From positions 62,001 to 126,000 of the forward strand of contig NZ_BBAD01000001.1 of assembly GCF_001311075.1 (NCBI RefSeq): a stretch of 64,000 nt of DNA. Direction: 5' to 3'. The notes under the pieces are model-generated. The model worked only from the letters and a program-made list of their open reading frames with translations. It searched no databases and was not told where the DNA came from. Shown here piece after piece: positions 60,828-63,445 of the stretch (positions within the stretch are counted from its first letter, which is position 1; every line of letters starts with the position of its first letter). This DNA is from Secundilactobacillus similis DSM 23365 = JCM 2765 (GTDB lineage Bacteria > Bacillota > Bacilli > Lactobacillales > Lactobacillaceae). The translations under genes were made by a program, and so were the position numbers.

Positions 60828-61244
60828 TTAGTTTTTAGGTTGTTCAGTGTTCTGATCATCGAATGGTTCCTCTAGTAGATCAGCGGCCAATTGGCGAATG
60901 TCGGTTGGAAAGTGAGGACTGCTTTTAACCTGACGCAGCCACCCGTATTTGTAGTCTCTAGCACGCAAGGCATGAATTTTCTTTGCAGCATGCTGATGCT
61001 CGATATCATGAGGAATCACTGACCATGAGCTATACATTAATTCATTCAGAGTTGGCATGATTAATTGGCGTAATTTCGCATCGGTTTCGGGTGTTTTGCT
61101 GAGTTCCCAGGCAATGTCTAATTGTTGGCATTTGGGCAATTCCAGACTCGAGTGAGGTGCATCTTTGAGAAATTGTTCGAGGGCTTCTTGGGGTGTGGTG
61201 GTAACTTTAACAAGTTTGTGATTGAAGTAGTAAGTTTGTGTCAT
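60828..61244 (-). CDS. Conserved-module protein D of an uncharacterised paralogue operon
   Basis: A 138-residue soluble protein, no signal or membrane helix. It shares a module with its neighbours: CQQLDIAWELSKTPETDAKL (near 44-63), LIMPTLNELM, and a C-terminal HFPTDIRQLAADLLEEP. The same pattern is in the 128-residue protein at 62560 and twice in the 333-residue protein at 61264. No known family. ATG 61244 has AAAGGAG; it overlaps nothing and follows the 333-residue gene by 19 bases. Last gene before the terminator. Confidence 0.75.
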   Translation of the reverse strand: MTQTYYFNHKLVKVTTTPQEALEQFLKDAPHSSLELPKCQQLDIAWELSKTPETDAKLRQLIMPTLNELMYSSWSVIPHDIEHQHAAKKIHALRARDYKYGWLRQVKSSPHFPTDIRQLAADLLEEPFDDQNTEQPKN

Positions 61245-61263
61245 GATGTTCTCCTTTGGATGA

Positions 61264-62265
61264 TTAGGCTTCAACTACCACCAACGGGTCGTTGAGTAAG
61301 TTAGCGGCGGACTGGCGGATGTCGAGTGGTAGGTAGTGATTATTGATAAGGCCCTGTAACCAACTGTCGCAATCGGCAATACTATTGATTGAAAAGCGGT
61401 GAGGGACGGAGATGACGGCATCGTTTTCCAGCCGACCCTCAGCTTTAGCGCGACCGTAAGCTAAAAGTGCCTCTCGTTTCTGGCTGATAAGGGCTAACCA
61501 AGGGGACAAAATCGCGCGAACGGCATCCCGGTCGGCGGCGGTTCGGCAGAGCTGCCATGCGATAGCGACTTCTCGGTCACGCGGTAATAAGTCGGCTTCA
61601 AGCGCGTTGGGTGAGTAAATGGTTTTGGCTGCGCGCCGTTGTTCAGCAATGAAATAATCCTGTAGTGGATCTAAATTTTCTTCGGATTTTTTGTGCAACC
61701 GATGATTGGCGTAGAAAACGGTGTGTGGTTGGTCATGGTTGATTGACGGTCCGCGAAAACCGGTCGTGCCTAAAATGCTGGCGACTTGCATGCGAACGTC
61801 CGGTGGAAATACTGAATCGCGGCCAATCTTTTGAAGCCACTTTTGCGCGTTGGTTAGCGTCAGGGTGTATTTCAACGAATAGAGGTCGTCTTCGTCCCGC
61901 GCTTGACCAGCCAAGCGGGTCCAGTAACTGCAAATGGACTCATGAGGGTGGCGTTTTAAATCAGGGTTGGTGCCGAGTTGTTGATTATAAGGGTCACGCC
62001 ATTCTCGTTGCAGATGGGCTTGGTTTTCCTTGAGTGGTGCCACGTACTGCGTGAAAAACCAACGGAAGTCAGCTTCTTGATGACGGGAGACGCAGAGTTC
62101 CCAGAATAAATGCAGTTGGTAAGGATCGAGGTGGTGGGCGCGCTGATCACCATCTTGATCGCGCCATTCTGAAACTTGGAACGTGCCCAGAAATTGGTTG
62201 ATGGCAGCACTGCCGGTGCGGACGTTGCTGTAGAGGTGGCCGTATGAGCTGTAGAATTTTTGCAT
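61264..62265 (-). CDS. Conserved-module protein C (two modules) of the paralogue operon
   Basis: A 333-residue soluble protein with two copies of the operon's module. First (about 47-170): LDPYQLHLFWELCVSRHQEA ... WLQKIGRDSVFPPDVRMQVA. Second (about 215-330): DREVAIAWQLCRTAADRDAV ... WLQGLINNHYLPLDIRQSAA then NLLNDPL. Helical and charged throughout; no catalytic motif. AGGAGGATTCATC precedes the ATG. Likely a gene fusion of two single-module proteins. Confidence 0.75.
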   Translation of the reverse strand: MQKFYSSYGHLYSNVRTGSAAINQFLGTFQVSEWRDQDGDQRAHHLDPYQLHLFWELCVSRHQEADFRWFFTQYVAPLKENQAHLQREWRDPYNQQLGTNPDLKRHPHESICSYWTRLAGQARDEDDLYSLKYTLTLTNAQKWLQKIGRDSVFPPDVRMQVASILGTTGFRGPSINHDQPHTVFYANHRLHKKSEENLDPLQDYFIAEQRRAAKTIYSPNALEADLLPRDREVAIAWQLCRTAADRDAVRAILSPWLALISQKREALLAYGRAKAEGRLENDAVISVPHRFSINSIADCDSWLQGLINNHYLPLDIRQSAANLLNDPLVVVEA

Positions 62266-62559: not shown

Positions 62560-62946
62560 TTAATTGAGTTCTGCTAATAAGGCCAAAGCCCGTTGCCGTA
62601 AATCCGCCGGTAAATGCGACATTCGAGTCAAATCTTGCACCCAGTGGAATTCCTGATTCGCATCCTGAATATAGGTCATGAACTGGTCATGGGAGAGCGA
62701 CTGGTCGTTGGCATGCTGCACCGTTGGCCAGCCCTGTCTTTCTAACTTAGCGAGCGTCGGAATCACTAAATTGCGCAGTGCTCGGTCGTCTGCTGGGTAC
62801 TGACAGAGTTGCCAAGCGAGGTCGAGTTGCTGACAACTAGGCAGGGTGTCAGCTTGATGTTGTTGCTTGATGAAATTCATCAGCACGTCGGTGGGATTGT
62901 AGCGAACTTCATAAAGGGTATCGTGAATTGAAAAAATGTGTGTCAT
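62560..62946 (-). CDS. Conserved-module protein A of the paralogue operon
   Basis: A 128-residue soluble protein with one module: SCQQLDLAWQLCQYPADDRA (near 36-55), LRNLVIPTLAKLE, and FHWVQDLTRMSHLPADLRQR then ALALL. It is the first gene after the tandem leaders at 63.0-63.4 kb and has AGGAGG 8 bases before the ATG. No known domain. Its expression is probably set by the leaders' terminators. Confidence 0.75.
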   Translation of the reverse strand: MTHIFSIHDTLYEVRYNPTDVLMNFIKQQHQADTLPSCQQLDLAWQLCQYPADDRALRNLVIPTLAKLERQGWPTVQHANDQSLSHDQFMTYIQDANQEFHWVQDLTRMSHLPADLRQRALALLAELN

Positions 62947-63033
62947 GGTGGGAACCTCCTAATTTGGGTGAATGCGTTGTTGGAATACCGGTGTGACAGC
63001 ATTTAACTAGTCTATGATTGGAATTTAGCCAAC

Positions 63034-63152
63034 AAAAAAAGCCGCACGGATGCACGACTAGTTGGGTTGCATCCAATCTATGGCGGAGCACGTTGCCGCA
63101 GTTGCGGTACGTTGCTGGTTGGTCATTGTGCATAGTCACTACCAACACTCTA
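63034..63152 (-). promoter_or_regulatory. Candidate attenuator/riboswitch, proximal copy
   Basis: Minus-strand RNA: ACTATG pairs CATAG around a hairpin AGCA...TGCT with inner CCGCA/TGCGG (63087-63116). GGATGCA (complement of 63068-63074) can pair TGCATCC (complement of 63048-63054), which excludes the terminator stem GTCGTGC/GTGCGGC (63041-63058) with seven T. Sequence is about 75% like the distal copy with compensatory changes. Confidence 0.6.
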
Positions 63153-63182
63153 AATGCGGTATTCAGTTTTGTGGTTTGGCCG

Positions 63183-63213
63183 ATCCGTTCGGGCTGGTTG
63201 ATTTCGAACGGAT
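63183..63213. repeat. Hairpin between the tandem leaders
   Basis: Perfect 9-base arms ATCCGTTCG and CGAACGGAT. A 25-codon frame (63163-63240, minus, starting MTHGFKLRRIRSK) overlaps it with a poorly spaced ribosome-binding site and is doubtful. Confidence 0.5.
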
Positions 63214-63272
63214 GCGCCTCAGTTTGAATCCATGTGTCATCACTTCCTTAAAGCGAAGTAATGCAGAACATG

Positions 63273-63396
63273 AAAAAAGCCGTGCGAATGCACGGCTTAC
63301 TACGTCCAGTCTGCATCCTACTATGGTGGGGCACGTTGCCGTTCTCACGGTACGTTGCCGGTTGGTCATTGTGCATAGTCACTCGCAACACTCTTG
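63273..63396 (-). promoter_or_regulatory. Candidate attenuator/riboswitch, distal copy
   Basis: Minus-strand RNA: AGAGTGTTG, ACTATG/CATAGT stem, hairpin GGCA...TGCC with inner CCGT/ACGG (63330-63359), then GGATGCA that can pair TGCATTC (complement of 63286-63292) in competition with the terminator GCCGTGC/GCACGGC and six T. First element after the promoter. Confidence 0.6.
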
Positions 63397-63416
63397 ATAC
63401 ATATTTGATTGACACC

Positions 63417-63445
63417 AGTGTAGGCTGAGTTGGGGTGGATGTCAA
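63417..63445 (-). promoter_or_regulatory. Promoter of the leader/paralogue operon
   Basis: Minus strand TTGACA, 17-base spacer, TACACT, about 15 bases before the distal leader. Confidence 0.7.

Follow-up and report, generated by a model that had tools for sequence, protein, structure and literature searches.

The locus lies on the minus strand near the end of the window, i.e., the whole stretch of 64,000 nucleotides that was analysed, and consists of a candidate promoter, two similar structured leaders in series and three genes, with the following features:

63417–63445, minus strand: candidate promoter TTGACA-17-TACACT (10/12 matches), whose position fits while its score alone is not above chance
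63310–63403, minus strand: aptamer 1, very probably a SAM-I (S-box) aptamer without P4 (RF00162, 40.3 bits, E 2.3e-7)
63379–63374 with 63325–63320, minus strand: pseudoknot of aptamer 1, which further comprises P1, P2a/P2b with an internal loop, and P3
63312–63318, minus strand: 3' strand of P1 in copy 1, GGATGCA, common to P1 and the antiterminator
63277–63298, minus strand: intrinsic terminator 1, containing TGCATTC (63292–63286), the partner of the P1 3' strand
63066–63160, minus strand: aptamer 2, a more divergent probable SAM-I aptamer without P4 (RF00162, 26.2 bits, E 0.0029)
63068–63074, minus strand: 3' strand of P1 in copy 2, GGATGCA
63040–63059, minus strand: intrinsic terminator 2, containing TGCATCC (63054–63048)
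62955–62960, minus strand: Shine-Dalgarno sequence AGGAGG of gene 1, read from the sequence
62560–62946, minus strand: gene 1, a family-1 protein of 128 aa (model with a beta hairpin and helices, pLDDT 89.6)
61264–62265, minus strand: gene 2, 333 aa, with two family-1-like parts
60828–61274, minus strand: gene 3, a family-1 protein of 148 aa as listed, for which an ATG start at 61244 is more likely

That two similar copies follow each other on this strand had been noticed in the original prediction, and this is borne out by a direct repeat of 74 nt (copies 86% identical, spacing 243), to which an extra terminator repeat of 25 nt (84% identical) is added. The base changes between the copies keep the stems in the way then described: in P3, GGCA/TGCC of one copy is AGCA/TGCT in the other, and a second compensation turns CCGT/ACGG into CCGCA/TGCGG. 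The proposed promoter is present as well (63445–63417), and the operon called unknown is real, its three genes being homologous to one another and belonging to an unnamed family. Consensus scans alone do not rise above chance, neither for promoters (3 promoter-like sites vs. 4.3 expected in 3.2 kb) nor for terminators (2 terminator-like sites vs. 3.3 expected in 3.2 kb). Between the two copies, the segment 63163–63250 carries a ribosome-binding-like site and ATGACACATGG (from 63240), seven codons after which a stop occurs; ATGACACATGG opens with the same eight bases as gene 1, and this stretch is perhaps the remnant of a gene lost from a duplicated unit.

The class of the leaders, which had been left unnamed, was provided by a covariance search against Rfam. 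At curated cut-offs, the scan of the window returned nothing, and the class emerged only from a permissive scan (1301-base search), in which the best match of both copies was RF00162, i.e., SAM-I (S-box); one weaker overlapping match to an unnamed family of the same clan was set aside. The two scores lie below the curated cut-off of RF00162 (44.4 bits), which is why a standard scan misses both leaders. Copy 2 is the weaker one: U-G replaces C-G at the closing pair of P1 and UUUAGAG replaces UCAAGAG around J1/2, so that, considering its 26.2 bits, it may be impaired, even if it reaches 69.1 bits with our custom model R1, the training set of which included it. In the same genome, metK carries a SAM-III (S_MK) box (70.4 bits), and the S-box is thus not doing its usual metabolic work there.

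Our alignment A6, made of 25 aptamers from 12 genera, displays P1, P2a and P2b with an internal loop, P3, and a pseudoknot between the P2 loop and J3/4, whereas P4 is absent. P4 being a peripheral helix of SAM-I, we file these leaders as a variant and not as standard SAM-I; by eye, J3/4 also deviates from the SAM-I consensus. The pseudoknot strand is separated from P1 by 1–5 nt in 25/25 rows, and the span from P3 to the end of the aptamer is 24–28 nt in 94 of 106 rows (the motif being missed or matched too early in 5 rows), compared to 38–39 nt in the seven rows of genus g33, in which P4 is present (by eye). Pairing is conserved throughout A6, with 94.9% of the cells paired and 19 of 29 pairs changed on both sides, and it is complete in the pseudoknot (100% of cells paired, 5/5 pairs covarying), while a slid control, where the partner is shifted by 1 to 3 columns, never exceeds 41.0%. 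Even the six family-1 leaders alone yield four covarying pairs, two of which are in the pseudoknot. The ten SAM-contact positions, numbered after the solved SAM-I structure, are intact in 24 of the 25 rows, including both copies of the window, the sole exception being one metK leader that differs at A46. The folding of single copies is not exceptional (z-scores of -1.34 and -0.87, with 18 and 35 of 200 shuffles equal), and the significance of the element comes from the E values of the Rfam matches, the covariation in relatives and the comparison of the relatives' terminators with shuffles.

The prediction of a tandem riboswitch in which terminator and antiterminator exclude each other is supported. 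In both copies, GGATGCA can pair into the terminator, as had been proposed (63318–63312 with TGCATTC 63292–63286, and 63074–63068 with TGCATCC 63054–63048). In copy 1, the antiterminator duplex amounts to -9.4 kcal/mol and the terminator to -15.2 kcal/mol, vs. -12.3 and -8.6 kcal/mol in copy 2, duplex and hairpin energies being only roughly comparable; with a strong terminator in the first copy, and a weak terminator plus a strong antiterminator in the second, the set points of the two copies may differ.

The same layout recurs in the relatives, among which we considered 44 distinct non-metK aptamers (repeats of identical aptamers, the seven g33 loci, the broken genes L070 and L117, and the metK loci L019, L023, L048, L051, L054 and L058, for which the ORF had been wrongly picked, were left out). 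The terminator starts 4–19 nt past P1 in all 44, and it reaches -8.5 kcal/mol or lower in 44/44, a level that 5 of 880 mononucleotide shuffles of these sequences attain. Sorted by hand, the 3' strands of P1 fall into six sequence types. Duplexes between these strands and their own terminators average -8.92 kcal/mol, vs. -4.73 kcal/mol with the terminators of other types, and are the stronger ones in 42/44 cases. The own type is best for five of the six types, and with one representative per type, the true matching alone is the strongest among 720. For the GGATGC type, which is that of the window, the single AATAACC terminator gives a slightly stronger average pairing than the type's own terminators. 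When own terminators are ranked against those of other genera, only 20/44 reach the top 10%, which is due in part to P1 types occurring in more than one genus. These terminator-targeted tests supersede a search for the longest complement anywhere in the downstream stretch, which was only weakly positive (17/57). That aptamers and expression platforms match in this way speaks for an off switch operating through a terminator and an antiterminator.

Read from the sequence, the mechanism would be as follows. When SAM is ample, P1 of either copy would be stabilised and its 3' strand withheld, so that the terminator forms and transcription ends; when SAM is scarce, the 3' strand would instead pair into the terminator and RNA polymerase would continue. 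Each copy having its own terminator and a matching antiterminator, SAM should turn the genes off, and these would be expected to be on when methionine or SAM is scarce. RNA polymerase would have to clear both copies in series, and tight repression is expected. It is thus very probable, in our view, that P4-less tandem SAM-I riboswitches, each with its own terminator, repress the operon of three homologous genes in response to SAM. In genera g15 and g38, four near-identical riboswitch-gene units (L086, L093, L094 and L095) have bases past P1 able to form 11 pairs with the Shine-Dalgarno region, possibly as a second, translational lock.

At E 0.01, RF00162 finds matches in 77 of 397 Lactobacillaceae genomes, 42 of them above the cut-off. 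The custom covariance model R1, built from 25 loci of that same family, extends this to 113 of the 397 genomes, spread over 18 of 40 genera, with 141 matches when the table is summed, and the relatives are found ahead of genes with their pairs kept or covarying, as anticipated. A search of the 84,980-species collection with the exact non-metK-type pattern returned 34 stretches, of which 33 belong to Lactobacillaceae and one to a Faecalicatena assembly, while the exact aptamer pattern had no match in the viral contigs of IMG/VR. The Faecalicatena absiana contig (L124, labelled as Lachnospiraceae) bears a family-2 unit resembling those of Leuconostoc and Lactobacillus, owing to either a recent transfer or contamination.

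The downstream gene was read for 106 rows, one locus being counted twice: 43 rows are ahead of metK (in eight genera), seven are in g33 and 56 are ahead of other genes (in 14 genera). The latter mostly encode proteins of 85–160 aa, although lengths as extreme as 44 and 407 aa occur, and some of these genes are broken. A classic SAM-repressed gene, metK is preceded in its eight genera by P4-less leaders of the A6 type. The g33 loci (L007–L012 and L072) have a P4-bearing SAM-I (58–76 bits) before a conserved ORF of 48–52 aa starting with MRLxEENFR, two members of which gave nothing convincing against Pfam. In Lacticaseibacillus sharpeae, three riboswitch-gene units are consecutive and a fourth is on another contig.

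At E up to 1, gene 1 matches nothing in Pfam, NCBIfam or PHROGs, and the part of the S-box genes that was scanned against these three collections yielded only weak, inconsistent matches below the cut-offs; the lowest E value for any gene of the window is 0.0019 (gene 2 to NF041728, below cut-off). An AlphaFold2 model of family 1 based on 20 sequences is confident (pLDDT 89.6, pTM 0.76) and shows a beta hairpin followed by helices. A sequence search of the PDB returned nothing convincing, and the best structural matches remained at E 0.53 and 0.81 with Foldseek, and at Z 7.5 (rmsd 4.2, 112 aligned) and 8.4 (rmsd 6.0, 97 aligned) with VIA-align, which is within the range of helical bundles. A C-terminal motif common to families 1 and 2 had been seen by eye, but it is unsupported by profiles (hhalign probability of 10, falling to 3.7 once sequences were added), and the helix order, though alike in the models of the two families, is common among helical bundles. 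No relative was recovered when genomes were scanned with one protein of the window, nor when plasmids and phages were searched by tblastn with a single protein each, even though a distant relative does sit on a plasmid. The family-1 profile matches seven other genomes, four of which (G008, G303, G386 and G394) have the riboswitch just upstream; the three remaining matches (G093, G106 and G317), in other genes or broken frames and devoid of riboswitch, are apparently due to chance. In five loci of Lacticaseibacillus and the plasmid (L076, L079, L083, L084 and L157), a second gene lies behind the riboswitch gene; its product begins with MSK[PK]R[SR]KR and, in L076 and L079, has an acidic tail, DEQxAYGDDWDG.

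The fold of SAM-I might be kept while another ligand is sensed, as in the spermidine variants, and this would explain the unusual genes. According to PMC10853860, there exist SAM-I variants that reject SAM and bind spermidine, and these share with our leaders the fold, an unusual gene set and an off switch by termination; moreover, P4 is absent and J3/4 altered in our case, and the scanned non-metK genes show no link to sulphur metabolism. Yet the spermidine variants are altered in the contacts of J1/2 and of the P3 internal loop, as stated in a figure legend of PMC10853860, whereas the leaders of the window keep the contact positions, even if positions 8 and 9 are changed in copy 2. Leaders equally deprived of P4 precede metK, and we hold a change of ligand to be quite improbable.

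Still less probable is that the copies regulate nothing, being decayed or mobile repeats. Consistent with this are the weakness of copy 2, the patchy distribution of the element (2 of 15 genomes in the genus of the window strain, a third having a chance-level match at E 0.918), the plasmid location of one copy and the family-2 genes that are broken behind an otherwise kept riboswitch in L070, L117 and the second copy of L087. Against it speak the covariation, the terminators that far exceed shuffles, the antiterminators matched by type and the genes located directly downstream. The latter are under purifying selection, with dN/dS values of 0.05–0.40 in six distinct pairs with dS > 0.1 (closer pairs, at 0.75–1.39 or without synonymous change, being uninformative). 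A mobile repeat without genes, or homologues losing their base pairing, had been named beforehand as outcomes at odds with a riboswitch, and what we observe is an element that precedes genes and pairs that are kept or covary.

As for SAM-I/IV, SAM-IV, or a leader-peptide or tRNA attenuator, we give them hardly any credit: SAM-IV likewise lacks P4 (PMC6890682) and one weaker same-clan match, of unnamed family, did overlap, but RF01725 (SAM-I/IV) and RF00634 (SAM-IV) are not matched anywhere in the genome at E up to 10, a P2 divided into P2a/P2b together with a PK-1 sets the leaders apart from SAM-I/IV as described in that paper, and the P3 loop is short and variable, with a terminator within 19 nt of P1 that leaves no room for the P5 and PK-2 of SAM-IV. 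SAM-I, SAM-I/IV and SAM-IV have the SAM-binding core in common, but SAM-IV possesses P5 and PK-2 besides lacking P4, and SAM-I/IV has an unsplit P2 (PMC6890682 and PMC2864571), so that the present form is a SAM-I without P4 and without the additions of SAM-IV.

Compared to the common form of SAM-I (RF00162), the leaders of the window possess, as judged from their sequence, the same P1, P2a/P2b with internal loop, P3, PK-1, contact nucleotides and terminator/antiterminator output, but they differ by the missing P4, the two copies in series, the sub-cut-off scores, and the control of genes for unnamed small proteins instead of methionine genes. The metK leaders of Leuconostoc, Weissella, Fructobacillus and relatives are equally P4-less and partly above the Rfam cut-off; in contrast to ours, they control the SAM synthetase, and their aptamer and protein diverge in step. 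SAM-III (RF01767) also senses SAM in Lactobacillales, and precedes metK here, but its fold is unrelated. Several aptamers per leader are likewise reported for the triple c-di-GMP riboswitch (PMC4759541) and for SAM-II/SAM-V (PMC11508383), whereas the window has two copies of SAM-I, each with its own terminator.

Where the leaders of the window stand apart is in the relationship between sensor and protein, which we compared for pairs with at least 60% aptamer identity. Among the 17 loci of the window type, the median identity between proteins is 33% for pairs whose aptamers are 95–100% identical (22 pairs, range 22–95; some pairs are lowered by L100, a 407-aa protein outside family 1), vs. 95% for metK in the same aptamer band (19 pairs, range 86–99). 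For instance, copy 1 of the window and the aptamer of S. odoratitofui are 98% identical, while the first proteins are only 34% identical; the third protein of the window is 47% identical to the S. odoratitofui protein. This could come from proteins that evolve rapidly while their sensor stays constant, or from a sensor that is swapped from one unit to another. A near-frozen riboswitch next to a rapidly changing protein is unusual and calls for an explanation.

Defence genes are found next to some of these units. In S. odoratitofui, Cas3 and a CRISPR array lie to one side of the locus, and a C5 DNA methyltransferase and an SNF2/PLD helicase to the other; the plasmid copy adjoins a PbeC-like protein and AbiH, and D12 methyltransferases are found at two loci. 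With PADLOC, 187 families were matched by 137 neighbour ORFs, vs. 107 families by 137 of the 180 ORFs of 40 arbitrary regions, a control that did not bring out an enrichment. Restriction-modification genes are present in both sets, and since the control regions too contain type I restriction-modification genes and BrxL, we do not claim a link to defence.

The operon is best interpreted as encoding small proteins that SAM represses and that serve the cell when SAM is low. One may hypothesize a role in conflicts with phages, which would fit the patchiness, the plasmid copy close to defence genes, the neighbours in S. odoratitofui and the fast change. Going further, SAM-I could have been freed from methionine metabolism in Lactobacillaceae to become a constant trigger for mobile, fast-diversifying small effectors that come on when SAM collapses, a generalization that we consider unlikely. 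Were it true, the collapse could be due, e.g., to a phage degrading SAM to escape restriction, or low SAM might alternatively leave the host DNA undermethylated, and effectors that vary behind an unvarying sensor would be the signature of an arms race.

Whatever their function, a SAM sensor before many different fast-changing small proteins of lactic acid bacteria is an unexpected job. According to an earlier survey (PMC3766115), SAM riboswitches have been lost from almost all Lactobacillus genomes, vs. 113 of 397 genomes of the family possessing them here, mostly in a P4-less form and many controlling proteins of no known family. Among the matches listed in our literature search, none dealt with these genes or with P4-less SAM-I in Lactobacillaceae. 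Usually, a metabolite sensor reveals the role of the gene that it controls; here, it signals "needed when SAM is low" for unnamed proteins, the function of which thereby becomes testable. In one Lacticaseibacillus (G279), the riboswitch precedes a 407-aa protein (L100:2173–3396) with sigma-70 regions 2 and 4 (Pfam E values of 6.6e-14 and 8.1e-18), and a 321-aa relative (by eye) follows the riboswitch in a Lactobacillus MAG (L146:375–1340); a sigma factor under the control of SAM would be notable.
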